Shown: piece by piece, positions 13,595 to 41,422 of the stretch
How the letters are laid out: each line of letters begins with the position of its first letter
Position numbering within the stretch: the stretch's first letter is position 1
Assembly: GCA_903871235.1 (NCBI GenBank)
Contig: CAIQGA010000037.1
Span: 1-41,422, forward strand
Direction: 5' to 3'
Source: an uncultured Chlorobiaceae bacterium
Lineage (GTDB): Bacteria > Bacteroidota > Chlorobiia > Chlorobiales > Chlorobiaceae
DNA length: 41,422 nucleotides
Notes under the pieces: generated by a model
What the model saw: only the letters and a program-made list of their open reading frames with translations
Database searches by the model: none
Told to the model about the DNA's origin: nothing
Position numbers and translations under genes: made by a program

Positions 13595-15157
13595 ATGAAG
13601 AGTGAAAAATTGAGGGTTGCCGCCATTGATCTCGGCACCAACTCCTTCCACATGATTATTGTCGAAGAGAATCCGCAGAAGGGGATTGTTGAGATTGATC
13701 GTGTCAAGGATATGATTTGTATTGGTCGTGGCAGCATCTCCACAAAAATGCTCAATGAAGAGGCCATGCAGTCAGGTATAGCCGCGTTGAAAAATTTTCT
13801 TGTTCTTGCCCGGCAGCATGGCGTAGCGCAGGAAAATGTTCTTGCCTTCGCCACCAGTGCCATTCGCGAGGCAAAAAACCAGGGGGATTTTCTCCGCCGT
13901 GTCCGCGAGGAGACCGGCCTGAAGGTCAAGGTGATTTCCGGCAGGGAGGAGGCTGAATTTATCTACTATGGAGTTCGTAATGCCGTGAAGATTGGCAAAA
14001 CTGCCGACCTTCTCTTCGATATCGGCGGAGGTTCGGTCGAGTTTGTGCTTGTCAACGAGAAGGGGATACAACTGCTCGAGAGTCGCAAAATTGGTGTGGC
14101 AAGGATGTGCGAGCGCTTTGTTGCCTCAGAACCGATAAGCAGCCACAACATCCATCTCCTTGAACAGTTCTTTTCGGCCGAGATGGTCACCGCTGTCGAA
14201 AAGGCCTCCCAACTCCAGGTGAGCAGGGCCATCGCCTCTTCAGGCACCGCACAGAATATCGCCCGCATGATAGCCTCCATGAATGGCCGTGAGAGTGATG
14301 CCTCGCTCAACAACAGCGTCTTCACCCGCAAGGAGTTTAAGGCTCTTTACCAGGCAGTCATTCCGCTCGGTGGCGGCGAACGGAAAAAATTGACAGGCCT
14401 TGACGAAAAAAGGGTCGATCTCATTGTGCCGGGGCTTATTCTTGTCGATATGATCTTCAAGCTCTTCAATCTGCAGGAGATTGTGATTGCTGATTCAGCC
14501 CTGCGGGAGGGAATGGTGCTCCACTATTTGAAGCATCGCATTGCTTCAGGTGCAAGGCGGGGAGAAGACGATGAACTCGACATCCGTCGTGAGAGTGTCT
14601 ATGAACTCGGCTTCCGATGTAACTGGATGCGTGACCATGCAGAGCATATTGCCCGACTCACACTTCAGCTTTTCGACAAGCTTGAACCCCTGCACCATCT
14701 CGACAAGCCTTACCGCGAACTGCTTGAGTACGCCGCACTGCTCCACAACATTGGCGCATTTATCTCCATTTCATCACATCACAAACACGGTCAGTACATC
14801 ATTCTCAATGGGGAGCTTCGTGGATTTTCTCCTTCGGAGATCGAGATTATCGCTCATGTTGTCCGTTATCACCGCAAATCTCCTCCATCGGAGCGTCATA
14901 CGGCCTACAACCTGCTCAAGCCAGAGCATAAACGGGCTGTTGACCTGCTTTCCGGTATGCTGCGTATTGCCAACGGTCTTGAACGTGGCCACCGGAAGAA
15001 TATTCAGAAAGTCAGCGTGGAGATTCGCGAGCGCGACATAACGCTTCGCCTCAAAAGCCGTTGCGAGCCCGACATTGAAATCTGGGCCGCCGACCTGCTG
15101 AAACCCTGGCTCGAAACCGTTCTCGACAAAACCATTACCATCGAAGCGAATCAGTAA
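13595..15157 (+). CDS. ppx: Ppx/GppA exopolyphosphatase-family phosphatase with HD domain
   Basis: The 520-residue protein has the two actin-like ASKHA halves of Ppx/GppA: phosphate loop IDLGTNSFHM (residues 11-20), ATSAIREAKN near 90, and DIGGGSVEFVL near 143. The C-terminal HD-like domain carries LLHNIGAFIS followed by SSHHKHGQYI. The family hydrolyses polyphosphate or pppGpp, and sequence alone does not separate the two activities. The last residue and stop codon (CAG TAA) are the first heptamer of a long repeat array, so the 3' end of the gene may have been reshaped by the array. Confidence 0.87.
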   Translation: MKSEKLRVAAIDLGTNSFHMIIVEENPQKGIVEIDRVKDMICIGRGSISTKMLNEEAMQSGIAALKNFLVLARQHGVAQENVLAFATSAIREAKNQGDFLRRVREETGLKVKVISGREEAEFIYYGVRNAVKIGKTADLLFDIGGGSVEFVLVNEKGIQLLESRKIGVARMCERFVASEPISSHNIHLLEQFFSAEMVTAVEKASQLQVSRAIASSGTAQNIARMIASMNGRESDASLNNSVFTRKEFKALYQAVIPLGGGERKKLTGLDEKRVDLIVPGLILVDMIFKLFNLQEIVIADSALREGMVLHYLKHRIASGARRGEDDELDIRRESVYELGFRCNWMRDHAEHIARLTLQLFDKLEPLHHLDKPYRELLEYAALLHNIGAFISISSHHKHGQYIILNGELRGFSPSEIEIIAHVVRYHRKSPPSERHTAYNLLKPEHKRAVDLLSGMLRIANGLERGHRKNIQKVSVEIRERDITLRLKSRCEPDIEIWAADLLKPWLETVLDKTITIEANQ

Positions 15158-15249
15158 TCAGTTGTCAGTAATCAGTTGTCAGTAATCAGTTATCAGTAAT
15201 CAGTAATCAGTTTTCAGTTGTCTGATTACTGATTACTGATAACTGAAAA
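15152..15249. repeat. CAGTNNT heptamer array with 25-bp hairpin
   Basis: Ten head-to-tail 7-base units (CAGTAAT, CAGTTGT, CAGTTAT, CAGTTTT types) occupy 15152-15221. Four inverted units (CTGATTA, CTGATTA, CTGATAA, CTGAAAA) follow to 15249. Bases 15186-15210 pair perfectly with 15222-15246, giving a 25-bp stem and 11-base loop. The first unit supplies the ppx stop codon. The array fills almost all of the ppx-pabBC gap. Confidence 0.95.
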
Positions 15250-15265
15250 CTCAAATATTCCGACC

Positions 15266-17119
15266 ATGCGCGACCGCACCCTGACGTCACAATGCCTCGT
15301 CACCCTTTCGTGCGAAGGGTCGCTTTGGCTTGAATCAGCCTTTTGCAAAGAGCTGGATGGCGGGGCGCTGCTCTTCTCCGCTCCTCTGGAGGTGGTGACG
15401 CTCACCTCCCTCTCCGGGCTTGAGAGCTTTTTTCGGAAGCTTGAGGAAAAGCTTGCTCAGGGCTTTTTTCTTGCCGGCTGGCTCACTTATGAGGCCGGTT
15501 ACGGTTTTGAGGAGTGCCTTGCCGACCCTGCTCACACTCTTCCGGTCCCACCGCTCGGCTGGTTCGGCATCTACCGCCAGCCGCAGCGCTTTTCTGCCCG
15601 AGAGGTCGAAGAGCTTTTTGCCGAAGCGAGCGCACTCTCCTCTCTCACGCTCAATGATCTCTTCTTCAACCTCTCTCAGGCAGAGTACTGTCGTAAAATT
15701 GAGAGTATCCGGGAGCAGATTGAGGCAGGAAATGTGTATCAGGTAAACTTTACCGGGCGATACCGCTTTACGTTTAATGGCGCGGCACCGGCACTTTTTG
15801 CAGCATTGAGAGGCGCGCAACCCTCCTCATACACCGCTCTCCTCAACAGCAAAGAGCGCACCATTCTCTCCTTTTCACCCGAACTCTTTTTCAGACGCAG
15901 CGGCTCCTCTATCGAAACCATGCCGATGAAGGGGACTGCACCAAGAGGGCGCACGGCAGAAGAGGACAACACCCTGAAAGAGGGGCTTGGGCAATGCCCA
16001 AAAAACCGGGCAGAGAATCTCATGATTGTCGATCTCCTGCGCAACGATCTCGGGCGGATATGCAAGCCCGGCTCAGTTGAGGCAGGGGAGCTCTTTGCCA
16101 CCGAAAGCTGGCCGACGCTCCATCAAATGCTTTCAACGATCTGCGGTGAGCAAAGGGAGGAGGTCGGGCTCTACGAACTCTTCCAGGCGCTCTACCCATC
16201 CGGATCAATAACCGGAGCGCCTAAAATAAATGCCATGAAGCTCATTCAAAGCCTTGAAGAGGAACCAAGAGGGATCTATACCGGCACTATCGGCTATATC
16301 ACCCCGGAGCGTGACATGGTTTTCAGCGTAGCCATCCGCACCATTGAGCTTACAGGCAACAAAGGGCTCTACGGTTCAGGGGGAGGCATCGTCTGGGACT
16401 CCAACCCCGCCGAAGAGTACCGGGAGTGCCAGCTCAAAGCAAAAATTCTTGGGGTGGGTGCAGGGTTTGGCCTTTTCGAAAGCATCCTCTGGAATGGAAG
16501 CTATCTCTGGCTTGAGGAGCATCTCCAGCGGCTTGCCGCATCAGCCGCAACCCTCGGCTTTCCCTGCAACATCGCCACCGCTGCACGACACCTCAGCACT
16601 CTCGAAGAGGAGCTGCGCCGAAACGCCGCCCGATACAAGGTAAAGCTCACCCTCTCCATGCAGGGAAGCTTTGGCACCAGCCATGAGCCAATACCTGCGC
16701 AGTCTTCCGCCACCACGCTTCGCCTCTGCATAGCCGCACACCGGGTCGATTCCCGAAACCCCTTGCTCCACCACAAAACCACCGAAAGGGCGCTCTACGA
16801 CCGCTACCTCACCCTCGCCCGTCACAGCGGTTACGATGAAGTGCTTTTTATGAACGAGCACGGAGAGCTGACCGAAGGAGCCATCAGCACCCTTTTTATC
16901 CGTCAAGGCCACCAACTCCTGACGCCTCCGCTCCACTCCGGCCTTCTCAACGGTATTTTTCGCAGCAACTTTCTCGCCACCCGCCCCTTCGCCGCCGAAA
17001 AAACCATAACCCTCCACGACCTGCAAACCGCCACCGCCCTCTTCATCGCAAATTCAGTCCGGGGCCTCAGGCCAGCTCTCTTCACTGGCAAAAAGTTGTC
17101 AGTAATCAGTAATCAGTAA
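15266..17119 (+). CDS. pabBC: Fused aminodeoxychorismate synthase I / aminodeoxychorismate lyase
   Basis: This 617-residue fusion makes 4-aminobenzoate for folate. Residues about 1-395 are PabB. PMKGT (220-224) contains the lysine typical of ADC synthase rather than anthranilate synthase, and GSITGAPKINAMKLI (313-327) and IRTI/GSGGGIVWDS complete the chorismate-binding fold. Residues about 398-610 are a PabC-like class IV PLP lyase with lysine K504 in HHKTTERALYDRYL and GELTEGAIST. The downstream minus-strand folP supports a folate role. The last seven residues (LSVISNQ) and the stop are encoded by a heptamer array, so the C-terminus has probably been replaced or extended by repeat sequence. 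Confidence 0.9.
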   Translation: MRDRTLTSQCLVTLSCEGSLWLESAFCKELDGGALLFSAPLEVVTLTSLSGLESFFRKLEEKLAQGFFLAGWLTYEAGYGFEECLADPAHTLPVPPLGWFGIYRQPQRFSAREVEELFAEASALSSLTLNDLFFNLSQAEYCRKIESIREQIEAGNVYQVNFTGRYRFTFNGAAPALFAALRGAQPSSYTALLNSKERTILSFSPELFFRRSGSSIETMPMKGTAPRGRTAEEDNTLKEGLGQCPKNRAENLMIVDLLRNDLGRICKPGSVEAGELFATESWPTLHQMLSTICGEQREEVGLYELFQALYPSGSITGAPKINAMKLIQSLEEEPRGIYTGTIGYITPERDMVFSVAIRTIELTGNKGLYGSGGGIVWDSNPAEEYRECQLKAKILGVGAGFGLFESILWNGSYLWLEEHLQRLAASAATLGFPCNIATAARHLSTLEEELRRNAARYKVKLTLSMQGSFGTSHEPIPAQSSATTLRLCIAAHRVDSRNPLLHHKTTERALYDRYLTLARHSGYDEVLFMNEHGELTEGAISTLFIRQGHQLLTPPLHSGLLNGIFRSNFLATRPFAAEKTITLHDLQTATALFIANSVRGLRPALFTGKKLSVISNQ

Positions 17120-17197
17120 TCAGTAGTCAGTAATCAGTAGTCAGTAGTCAGTAGTCAGTAATCAGAAAACTGACAACTGATAACTGATTACTGATAA
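17100..17197. repeat. Second CAGTNNT heptamer array
   Basis: Nine CAGTAAT/CAGTAGT units run from 17100 to 17162. CAGAAAA and inverted CTGACAA, CTGATAA, CTGATTA, CTGATAA units follow to 17197. CAGTAATCAG (17156-17165) can pair with CTGATTACTG (17184-17193). Unit type and forward-then-inverted order match the array at 15152. The array begins inside pabBC and supplies its stop. Confidence 0.95.
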
Positions 17198-17252
17198 CTA
17201 AAAAACTAACTATATTGCCCTCATACAAAAAACTAACCCATACCCGACCACC

Positions 17253-29712: not shown

Positions 29713-30699
29713 GTGCATAATAGAGTATACGTTGCCGGTCATCAGGGAATGGTTGGTTCTGCCATTGTGCGTCACCTCTTTGCCCAAGGGTTGAACTCCG
29801 GGAATTTGCTGCTCAGAACGCATGCTGAGCTTGACCTCACTTGTCAGGCGGCGGTTCGGACATTTTTTGAGAGTGAAAAGCCCGCACAGGTCTACTTGGC
29901 AGCGGCAAAAGTTGGCGGTATTCATGCCAACAATTGCTATCCGGCGGAGTTCATTTACCAGAATCTGATGATTGAGGCCAATATTATTCATGAGAGCTGG
30001 CGTGCGGGTGTGCAAAAGTTGCTTTTTCTCGGTTCGAGCTGTATCTATCCCCGGTTGGCATCGCAGCCGATGCCGGAGAGCGCCCTTTTGACGGGCCCTC
30101 TTGAGCCGACCAATGAGCCTTATGCCATCGCCAAGATTGCCGGTATCAAGCTCTGCGAAAGTTACAACCGGCAGTATGGAGAGAGCCATGGAACCGACTT
30201 CCGTAGCGTTATGCCGACTAACCTCTATGGCCCCGGTGACAATTATCACTTTGAAAACAGCCATGTTATTCCGGCCATGATCCGCCGTTTTCATGAGGCA
30301 CTCAGCGATCAGCATTCAGCATTCAGCACTCAGCGCTCAGTCCAGATATGGGGTAGTGGCACGCCGCTGCGGGAGTTCCTCTATGTAGATGATATGGCAG
30401 CAGCAAGTCTCTTTGTGATGAACCTCGACAAGGCGGTTTTTGCCGCCAACACCACTCCGATGCAGAGTCATATCAATGTGGGGAGCGGTCGGGAGGTTAC
30501 TATCAAGGAGCTTGCTGAAACTATTTCAAAAGTGGTTGGCTACAAGGGTGAGATTGAGTTCGATTCAGCGAAACCGGATGGTTCACCCCGGAAATTGATG
30601 GAGTGCAGCCGCCTTAACAACCTTGGATGGAGGCCGAACGTGGGGCTTGAAGAGGGGTTGGCGCTCGCTTATAACGATTTTTTAATTAACCACCAATGA
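29713..30699 (+). CDS. fcl: GDP-L-fucose synthase, with repeat-encoded loop
   Basis: This 328-residue SDR epimerase/reductase converts GDP-4-keto-6-deoxymannose to GDP-L-fucose. It has the NADP motif [11 protein letters not shown] (7-17), active-site S108 and C110 in GSSCIYP, and the Y137-K141 pair in YAIAK. The GTG at 29713 is chosen because it gives [10 protein letters not shown], close to the family start, with GGGA just upstream. GTG 29671 would add 14 residues. Residues 197-210 ([14 protein letters not shown]) are encoded by a CAGCNNT heptamer array and replace a shorter loop of relatives. The gene overlaps gmd by four bases (ATGA). Together they supply fucose for surface polysaccharide. 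Confidence 0.92.
30303..30344 (+). repeat. In-frame CAGCNNT heptamer array inside fcl
   Basis: Units CAGCGAT, CAGCATT, CAGCATT, CAGCACT, CAGCGCT and a partial CAGTCCA run head to tail. Three units equal 21 bases or seven codons, so the translated product repeats as LSDQHSA / FSTQRSV. Unit length and the CAG-Y-NN-T skeleton match the intergenic arrays at 15152 and 17100. Confidence 0.9.
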
Positions 30700-39315: not shown

Positions 39316-40197
39316 ATGGGCATTGAGCCTTTTGTTATCGTGTTGCAGGTACTTCGTCTTGCTGTACCATACATTCTTACTTCTGTTGGTGCAACCTTTT
39401 CCGAACGGGGAGGTGTGGTTAATCTGGCGCTTGAAGGGATGATGCTTATTGGCGCGTTTGGTGCGGCGCTTGGCCAGTATCGGAGTGGTTCGGCCCTGGT
39501 CGGGATTCTTCTGGCACTTTTTTGCGGTCTTGGTGTGGCGCTGCTTTTTGCTTTTGTGACCATTACCCTCAAGGCTGACCAGATTGTTGCTGGTATAGCT
39601 ATTAACATCCTTGTTATGGGCGCTACCAGGTTTGGGCTCAGCGTGCTCTTCGGGAGTTCGACAAATTCAGCGCGGATTGCCGGTATTGAGGTTCCCTCAC
39701 TTCTGCTTGATCCCCTCTTTCTTGCCGCAGTTGTTTCCGTTCTTGCCGGTCAATTTTTTTTGTTTAAAACGCCTTACGGCCTCAGGCTCCGGGCAACTGG
39801 TGAGAGTGCAGAAACCGCTGACAGTGCGGGGATTAATGTTGACAGGATGCGCTACTCCGGCGTTCTCGTTTCGGGGGCTCTTGCGGCGCTTGGTGGAGCT
39901 TTTCTCGTCTTTCAGCAGCACACGTTTACCGATAACATGTCGGCCGGTCGGGGTTATATCGCACTTGCCGCCATGATTATCGGTAAGTGGAATCCAGTTG
40001 GAGCCGCATTTGCGAGTCTGCTTTTTGCGGCGACCGAATCAATGGAGATCTGGCTTCAGACGGGGTGGATTCCTTCCCAGTTGGTGCAGTCACTTCCATA
40101 CGTTATAACGCTGTTGGTACTTGCCGGCTTTGTCGGCAGAGCCTCTGCTCCCAAAGAGGCAGGCATTCCCTTTGAGAAAAATCGTCATTCAGGGTAG
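39316..40197 (+). CDS. Nucleoside-type ABC transporter permease (NupQ/YufQ-like)
   Basis: The 293-residue membrane protein belongs to the BPD_transp_2 permeases of the BMP-type nucleoside uptake systems. The N-terminal YILTSVGATFSERGGVVNLALEGMML motif region (20-45 approximately), ADQIVAGIAINIL, and the cytoplasmic LRATGESAETADSAGINV EAA-like loop are characteristic. Eight or nine hydrophobic segments are visible. Such systems need an ABC ATPase, a second permease and a lipoprotein (BmpA/Med type). None of these is in the window, and the next gene is unrelated. So either partners are encoded elsewhere or the gene is a relic of a larger operon. Confidence 0.85.
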   Translation: MGIEPFVIVLQVLRLAVPYILTSVGATFSERGGVVNLALEGMMLIGAFGAALGQYRSGSALVGILLALFCGLGVALLFAFVTITLKADQIVAGIAINILVMGATRFGLSVLFGSSTNSARIAGIEVPSLLLDPLFLAAVVSVLAGQFFLFKTPYGLRLRATGESAETADSAGINVDRMRYSGVLVSGALAALGGAFLVFQQHTFTDNMSAGRGYIALAAMIIGKWNPVGAAFASLLFAATESMEIWLQTGWIPSQLVQSLPYVITLLVLAGFVGRASAPKEAGIPFEKNRHSG

Positions 40198-40518
40198 GTT
40201 GAACTGCTTCGTGACAGATGTTTGTTCCTGCCTTTTGTGATTGAATTTTCGATTTGTCATGAAAGTAGTTTTGCATGAAACCAAAAATATGTTTTGTTTT
40301 AAATTGGTTGTACTCTTTTGTATATTTTCTCATGTAATATAGTCGTATATATGTGGATTGTGGATTGTGGATTGTGGATTGTGGATTGTGGATTGTGGAT
40401 ATGCTTGACGTGTATGTTGCGTTGCTTTACTGTAGTTACTGTTTTTGTTTTGTCTCAGTATTTTGTTGCTTTTTAAGTATTTAACGGCTATTCACGGCTA
40501 ACTCTACCCATAGTACCA
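40198..40518. other. Gene-free gap before the adhesin
   Basis: This 321-base gap is AT-rich and contains no credible gene. It holds the GTGGATT array (40353-40401), an ACGGCTA motif repeated twice around 40485-40500, and the first copy of a direct repeat AGTACCAAT (40512-40520) that overlaps the adhesin start. The adhesin promoter must be here. No clear -10/-35 pair or terminator after the permease was recognised. Confidence 0.6.
40353..40401. repeat. GTGGATT heptamer array upstream of the adhesin
   Basis: Six perfect GTGGATT units (40353-40394) are followed by a seventh with one mismatch (GTGGATA, 40395-40401). The array ends 117 bases before the adhesin ATG. Perfect identity of the units suggests recent slippage or expansion. 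Confidence 0.97.
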
Positions 40519-41422
40519 ATGAGTACCAATAATACAACGTCGCTTGCAATTGTCGCTGAAATTACCGGGAAGGTATGGACTGTGGCTGAAGATGGAACCC
40601 GCCATCTCCTTCAGAAAGGTGATGCGGTGTATGAAGGTGACGTTATTCTTGCTGAGGGTGGCGGTCTGGTTGTGCTTAGGGCGGCAAGTGGTGCTGAATT
40701 GAAGGTTACAGAAAGCAAAGAGGTCGTATTGAGTGACGGGCTGTTTGAAGGCGTGGAAAATACGTTCAGCCTTAATTTGAGGGGATTGATGGCCGCAACG
40801 GACGGAGCGCCTGACGTCGGCAGCATCGGATTGCTCGATGGAGTGGTGTTTGATCAGCCAGTTGACTGGAGGAGTTTTGATAATCTCAGTGAATCGGAGT
40901 CCCTTAGTGGATTTTTAAGTATTGAGCGTGTTGTGGAGTCCGTTACTGCTCCTCCGTATCTTTTATGGTCGTTTACGGGTAATTATAACTCGTCAACTAA
41001 TTTTCGTTTATCAAGTTACAACCCCTTTCTTGATGGTCGGGCGACTTATGACGAGCGAATAATAATGAGCCTTGAACCGCTTGGTTTTACTTATGAGGAA
41101 CCATTGCTTTTGCAAAAAACCATCGTTTTTGCAGAGACTCCACTTTTGCAGCCGAAAGTGGTTTCACCAATAGTTCCGGTGGTTAATGACCAGACCCGGC
41201 AAGGCTACGTCGAAGAGGAAGCCCTCACTGGCGGCAACAGCGACACCAGCGATGTCAGCGGCCTGACGGGAGACAACGATGGCAACAACGCCGTCTGGTC
41301 AGGCACGCTGAGCGGCCTTGCCTCCTTCGGCGCCGACCAGCCAGGCACCTATACGATTAATATGGTCACGACCGGCTTGCCCGTGCTCACCTCCGAGGGT
41401 GCCACCGTGCTCTACAGTGTGA
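40519..41422 (+). CDS. Large LapA-like adhesin, N-terminal part (retention module plus T1SS-type repeat)
   Basis: The frame stays open for 301 codons to the window edge. Residues about 9-75 (AIVAEITGKVWTVAEDG, then QKGDAVYEGDVILAEGGG and LRAASGAELKVTESKEVVL) resemble the N-terminal retention module that anchors LapA-type adhesins in the TolC-like secretion pore. A dialanine at residues 92-93 (GLMAATDG) falls where LapG-type proteases cut. A linker unlike known domains follows. From about residue 230 begins a repeat domain (SGTLSGLASFGADQPGTYTI, LTSEGATVLYS) of the large T1SS-exported proteins. The complete protein is probably thousands of residues with a C-terminal type I secretion signal. 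No ribosome-binding site is seen, and the start lies within a direct repeat. Confidence 0.7.
   Translation, partial: MSTNNTTSLAIVAEITGKVWTVAEDGTRHLLQKGDAVYEGDVILAEGGGLVVLRAASGAELKVTESKEVVLSDGLFEGVENTFSLNLRGLMAATDGAPDVGSIGLLDGVVFDQPVDWRSFDNLSESESLSGFLSIERVVESVTAPPYLLWSFTGNYNSSTNFRLSSYNPFLDGRATYDERIIMSLEPLGFTYEEPLLLQKTIVFAETPLLQPKVVSPIVPVVNDQTRQGYVEEEALTGGNSDTSDVSGLTGDNDGNNAVWSGTLSGLASFGADQPGTYTINMVTTGLPVLTSEGATVLYSV

Follow-up and report, generated by a model that had tools for sequence, protein, structure and literature searches.

Retention modules at the N-termini of large adhesins are usually taken as a sign that the protein is released from the cell by LapG under the control of cyclic-di-GMP. 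A reading frame that runs off the end of a contig from an uncultured member of the Chlorobiaceae raises the question of whether that assumption can be carried over to green sulfur bacteria. In a first-pass annotation its N-terminal 75 residues were likened to the LapA retention domain, a dialanine downstream was suggested to lie near a LapG site, and cyclic-di-GMP-controlled adhesion was proposed in the event that a LapG/LapD pair exists.

The window, by which we mean the whole stretch of 41,422 nucleotides analysed, is contig C37 in full of a 3.3 Mb genome assembled in 234 contigs (G000), and its features are collected in Table 1. The frame at its end is the N-terminus of a giant adhesin with T1SS-143 repeats. 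Its residues 218-301 are homologous to several repeats of a relative on contig C52 of genome G052 and to stretches in G058, G045, G074 and G007, and are matched weakly by TIGR03660 (E 0.013). The long relatives whose frames reach a stop codon measure 2477 amino acids with ten T1SS-143 stretches (G074:C114) and 3184 amino acids with seven (G045:C24), and the adhesin frame on G012:C6 extends over 5712 amino acids. The permease encoded upstream in the window is 92% identical to the permease of G074:C114.

Table 1. Features at the adhesin end of the window.
Feature	Position	Strand	Basis or remark
5' part of giant T1SS adhesin gene	40519..41421	+	ATG, 301 codons, no stop before contig end
Retention (cell-surface anchoring) domain, residues 8-76	40540..40746	+	NF033682, 5ix9 profile, AlphaFold2 model
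Linker, residues 77-126, low conservation and low confidence	40747..40896	+	alignment columns, pLDDT
Dialanine 92-93, context GLMAATDG	40792..40797	+	codons; not LapG consensus
Second conserved block, residues 127-186	40897..41076	+	15/60 columns conserved at 90% or above (20 sequences)
Start of repeat region, residues 218-301	41170..41421	+	homology to relatives' repeats
ABC permease gene upstream of adhesin	39316..40197	+	conserved neighbour, marks orthologous adhesin locus

The likeness to the retention domain was borne out at the level of both sequence and fold. The retention_LapA profile NF033682 matched the window protein with E 3.5e-12, residues 9-83 aligning with profile positions 3-72 of 145, at a score of 46.7 bits that lies below the curated cut-off of 50; at E values up to 1 this frame gave the one match in its genome. 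A family profile made from 20 chlorobial N-termini, with near-duplicate or cut N-termini left out, matched the cell surface anchoring domain of the Marinomonas primoryensis adhesin in PDB entry 5ix9 at E 1e-7, whereas the window sequence alone reached E 0.061. An AlphaFold2 model built from 16 aligned sequences was confident for about residues 8-76, with block-mean pLDDT values of 90-95 for residues 11-60 and of 84 and 77 for residues 61-80. It could be superposed on 5ix9 with a Z-score of 12.9 and an rmsd of 2.4 over 75 of 76 residues at 19% identity, the next chain in the structure comparison scoring Z 4.6, and Foldseek returned E 3.5e-5 for the model against 5ix9. Because sequence and structure evidence agree, the retention fold is supported and the module in the window frame is confirmed, its N-terminal resemblance being far above chance; an N-terminus unlike the retention fold, one of two findings that the annotation had named as telling against its proposal, is not what this protein has.

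Of 86 Chlorobiaceae genomes, 19 encode a relative of the N-terminal domain. The search for relatives gave 20 genomes, but G007 is left out of this count because it matches in the repeat region alone. Across a sample of 394 genomes from the phylum, retention matches were likewise found in 19, all of them from the window's own family and 10 of them above the NF033682 cut-off, and the 15 loci from named genomes that encode relatives all belong to Chlorobiaceae, Chlorobium or Chlorobiota, in keeping with the green sulfur bacterial host that had been assumed. No plasmid matched the N-terminal 200 amino acids of the window protein. Two short proteins with a retention domain, of 1084 amino acids (L038 6202-9453, G045:C14) and 1319 amino acids (L040 130-4086, G076:C71), carry cadherin-like and vWA domains and form a paralogue group separate from the giant adhesins, and one adhesin (G046:C354, L043 4697-5200) has two tandem, diverged retention modules.

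In Lap systems the linker that follows the retention domain is the place where LapG cuts, at the alanine pair 108-109 in LapA of Pseudomonas. The corresponding linker in the chlorobial proteins is poorly conserved, with a mean majority fraction of 0.31 and no column at 90%, and the model has pLDDT values below 50 at residues 88-109, 111-125 and 127-134. The dialanine at 92-93 is indeed present, as annotated. A second pair lies at 55-56 within the retention domain, and shuffling of the linker produces an alanine pair in 11% of trials. The pair at 92-93 is shared by 9 of the 20 sequences in the family profile, all within the ten nearest to the window, and is absent from distant sequences. The published cleavage site of LapG and its Desulfovibrio counterpart comprises a helix, a DP motif and the sequence [T/A/P]AAG (PMC13090378). 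Neither DP nor [T/A/P]AA[G/V] occurs in the 301-residue frame, where the site reads MAAT, and in the model a four-residue helix at 73-76 alone stands between the retention domain and the dialanine. The sequence TAAG was found in 2 of 25 usable linkers (L029 and L030, paralogues from G079:C61 and G054:C76), both belonging to one paralogue group in other genomes; the linker set held 27 rows, of which L019 (wrong start) and L020 (cut at 53 amino acids) were excluded, and the linker limits are rough in L018 and in the double-module L043.

The genomes were also searched for the components that would operate such a site. LapG (Peptidase_C93, PF06035), searched for with this one Pfam model, was matched in none of the 86 family genomes, including the window's own, and a Caulobacter control was positive. 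LapD_MoxY_N (PF16448) was also matched in 0 of 86 genomes, but in no control genome either, and for this reason the EAL domain, which both LapD and DvhD carry, was used as the test for LapD instead; it was found in none of the 86 genomes and in 6 of 14 controls. GGDEF domains, by contrast, are present in 81 of the 86 genomes, at 8 places in G000, and cyclic-di-GMP signalling as such may therefore exist in the family. With neither LapG nor EAL matched in any family genome, the published Lap switch has neither its protease nor its class of receptor in this family. A LapG site at 92-93 is rejected on the LapG result together with the MAAT context and the missing DP motif. The proposed LapG/LapD pair, whose absence the annotation had also named as telling against it, was not found, and sequence analysis does not support cyclic-di-GMP-controlled release. 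A true LapA system, in which the linker would be cut at the dialanine when cyclic-di-GMP is low, could appeal to the alanine pair in nearly half of the profiled sequences, to the abundance of GGDEF domains and to the TAAG of the two paralogues, but the protease, the EAL domain and the motif are all missing, the preceding helix is minimal, and the LapD_MoxY_N result adds a weak point in the same direction. We regard such a system as largely refuted and exceedingly improbable.

The annotation's suggestion of type I secretion, on the other hand, is well founded. Contig G074:C114 carries in one piece a permease, the adhesin, TolC, a PpiC-type isomerase, an ABC transporter of 1018 amino acids and HlyD, and it is one of two (with G012:C6) on which a retention adhesin and then its secretion genes lie on a single contig; the G012 locus has a TPR gene, encoded on the opposite strand, between TolC and the isomerase. 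The order adhesin, TolC, PpiC-type isomerase, ABC transporter, HlyD was seen in 13 of the 18 ABC loci examined (20 pieces, L036 and L037 being the same G012 locus as L075), the isomerase of G056 having been supplied to this count by a separate isomerase search. The remaining five loci (L074, L081, L084, L085 and L087) have an upstream frame without a family, are otherwise arranged or are cut.

In the window's own genome, contig C12 begins within an adhesin C-terminus of 495 amino acids and continues with TolC (247.8 bits, cut-off 225.15), the isomerase (Rotamase), the ABC transporter and HlyD. Pfam domains of this transporter are cNMP_binding, Peptidase_C39, ABC_membrane and ABC_tran; its C39-like and ABC parts are over cut-off, and against TIGR01846 it scores 713.7 bits, below the cut-off of 725.55. 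Since G000 holds a single retention module, a single operon isomerase and one listed ABC transporter of about 1000 amino acids, synteny makes it probable that C12 carries the other end of the gene cut in the window, with the middle portion unassembled. Domain and operon also go together across the 86 genomes: 19 have the domain and 17 the isomerase, with 15 having both (15/4/2/65, Fisher p 2e-11), and the corresponding figures for the transporter of about 1000 amino acids are 19 and 16, with 14 having both (14/5/2/65, Fisher p 3e-10), p values that overstate independence because the genomes are related by descent. The operon is seen without the N-terminal domain in G007, whose contig starts within the adhesin, and in G019. 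Neither isomerase nor transporter was found in 4 of the 19 retention genomes (G046, G048, G059 and G062), which may use another exporter or have an operon hidden by assembly gaps. Genes for TPR and glycosyltransferase family 41 (GT41) proteins directly follow the secretion operon (L071 7869-11591, and downstream of HlyD in L078, L079 and L082). This adjacency was confirmed by Pfam in four loci, one of them in the window's own genome; at least three relatives share it, and it is possible that the adhesin is glycosylated in the cytoplasm by the GT41 enzyme.

By sequence the exporter resembles a cyanobacterial type with cNMP-like and C39-like domains. Judged from the 14 best plasmid records, the transporter is about 44-46% identical to cyanobacterial proteins over 95-99% of its length, and 16 plasmid records reach a coverage of 80% or more, every one of them belonging to the cyanobacterial matches listed. 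The order peptidylprolyl isomerase, ABC transporter, HlyD recurs on Nostoc and Picosynechococcus plasmids. These cyanobacterial systems differ from the chlorobial ones in that no retention domain was found in the three loci examined and no TolC is listed adjacent in a gene table that is incomplete; one related exporter adjoins a predicted extracellular nuclease. The N-terminus of the transporter on C12 matches PF00027 at E 1.2e-14. The canonical phosphate-binding cassette of cNMP-binding domains reads FGE..L......PRAA, and in an alignment judged by eye most chlorobial copies read FGWVSLMRRQPTEI at this place. Inspected in the same way, the 18 chlorobial transporters seem to lack residues needed for cAMP binding and for the C39 cysteine protease.

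A mechanism that accommodates these findings is constitutive anchoring of the adhesin in the TolC channel with no Lap-type release, which we consider the most likely by a good distance. The adhesin would be exported C-terminus first by its dedicated system of TolC, PpiC-type isomerase, cNMP-like/C39-like ABC transporter and HlyD. The compact retention domain would arrive last and, unable to pass the TolC channel, would plug it from the periplasm, a function suggested by homology to LapA and to the Marinomonas adhesin. The linker would thread into the channel and leave the repeats outside, and anchoring would be lost by turnover or through an unrelated protease, not by a Lap switch. That neither a LapG protease nor an EAL-type cyclic-di-GMP receptor was found in the genome or the family makes constitutive anchoring probable. 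Against this reading stand the retention score of 46.7 bits under a cut-off of 50, the cut gene, the unjoined contigs C37 and C12, the four of 19 genomes that have no operon markers, the TAAG in the linkers of two paralogues, the tandem modules of G046:C354 and the judgement of LapG absence by one model.

The region beyond the linker bears on whether release might nevertheless be regulated in some other way. Residues 127-186 follow the pattern GFLSIERVVES..PPYLLWSFTGNYN..FLDGRATYDERI and are conserved much as the retention domain is: among 20 sequences, 15 of the 60 columns here and 15 of the 69 in the retention domain reach 90%, as against none in the linker between them, and R163, R174 and R180 are invariant. 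The block has no Pfam or NCBIfam match in the window protein, and residues 127-200 predicted alone from 16 sequences gave no confident fold (mean pLDDT 57.7, pTM 0.22) and no structural elements long enough to be listed. By its position the block could sit in or just beyond the channel, with a lock, a cap and a cleavage site for another protease among its possible roles. Regulated release by a protease unrelated to LapG, reading either the linker or this block, has in its favour the conservation of the block, with its three arginines, next to a linker that is not conserved; no protease gene was seen to recur in the neighbourhoods of the ABC loci, a weak objection given that most flanking frames there are unassigned, and on balance we think this unlikely. 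It is less likely still that the N-terminal domain shares the fold of a retention module and serves another purpose, such as binding or chaperone recognition, with the type I system releasing the protein. The tandem modules of G046:C354 are superfluous for a single plug, and the neighbour of the related cyanobacterial exporter is a predicted extracellular nuclease, but the N-terminal position of the domain, its match to an anchoring-domain fold and its linkage to type I secretion all speak for a plug.

Constitutive anchoring leaves room for a more elaborate arrangement, which we put forward tentatively as somewhat improbable in its entirety: a permanent tether without a Lap switch, in which a Lap-type plug would be combined with a cyanobacterial-type exporter bearing a nucleotide-binding-like sensor, the adhesin glycosylated by GT41 before export and then held or cut at the lineage-specific block. 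Control would in that case be exerted at export, through the cNMP-like domain of the transporter, and not at release.

LapA of Pseudomonas fluorescens likewise combines an NF033682-type retention module at its N-terminus with a giant repeat body and type I secretion. Unlike LapA, the chlorobial family has no LapG or EAL match, the window frame has no [T/A/P]AAG site, and the exporter is nearest to the HlyB model, well below the LssB cut-off, with an N-terminal cNMP-like domain and an adjacent PPIase. The anchoring domain of the Marinomonas adhesin, an organism also named for it in PMC13090378, shares the fold, whereas repeats and host differ and a conserved block follows in the chlorobial proteins. 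The DvhA/DvhG/DvhD system of Desulfovibrio vulgaris is described as having a retention domain and a large type I-secreted adhesin as well (PMC13090378), and the vWA domain of one chlorobial paralogue group is a further likeness to DvhA; a DvhG-type BTLCP protease and its cleavage motif were not found here.

Giant type I-secreted adhesins of green sulfur bacteria have been reported before (PMC7762298, PMC4053972). In Prosthecochloris a giant adhesin, or T1SS-143 RtxA-like protein, is followed by TolC, ABC and HlyD genes, and there too the adhesin gene is cut by contig ends (PMC7762298); the words 'retention' and 'LapA' do not occur in the main text of that report. The open-licence literature yielded nothing on a giant RTX adhesin of Chlorobium, on type I systems with a cyclic nucleotide-binding domain and an isomerase, or on HlyB in connection with cyanobacteria. 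Within that literature, the new elements are the retention anchor, the cyanobacterial-like exporter and the absence of the switch. A plug accompanied by many GGDEF domains and by no LapG or EAL match suggests that the usual Lap inference does not hold beyond the lineages in which it was established. It also makes the adhesin a candidate for lasting attachment between cells, or of cells to surfaces, in the green sulfur bacteria, a group with consortial members.

Two further observations concern the window itself. Its first 3300 positions encode a PRK/uridine-kinase-like protein and an aldo/keto reductase, and GC content is 66-70% in the first 3 kb as against about 51% in the remainder, which suggests that this end of the contig is chimeric or a contaminant. 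A perfect array of seven TGTGGAT copies lies at 40352-40400, 118 bases upstream of the adhesin start, and further heptamer arrays are found at 15149-15222, 17094-17199 and 30298-30340. None of 24 homologous upstream regions, each of up to 400 bases, contains three or more perfect copies of any 5-12-mer, and the TGTGGAT array of the window could be a promoter spacer of variable length.
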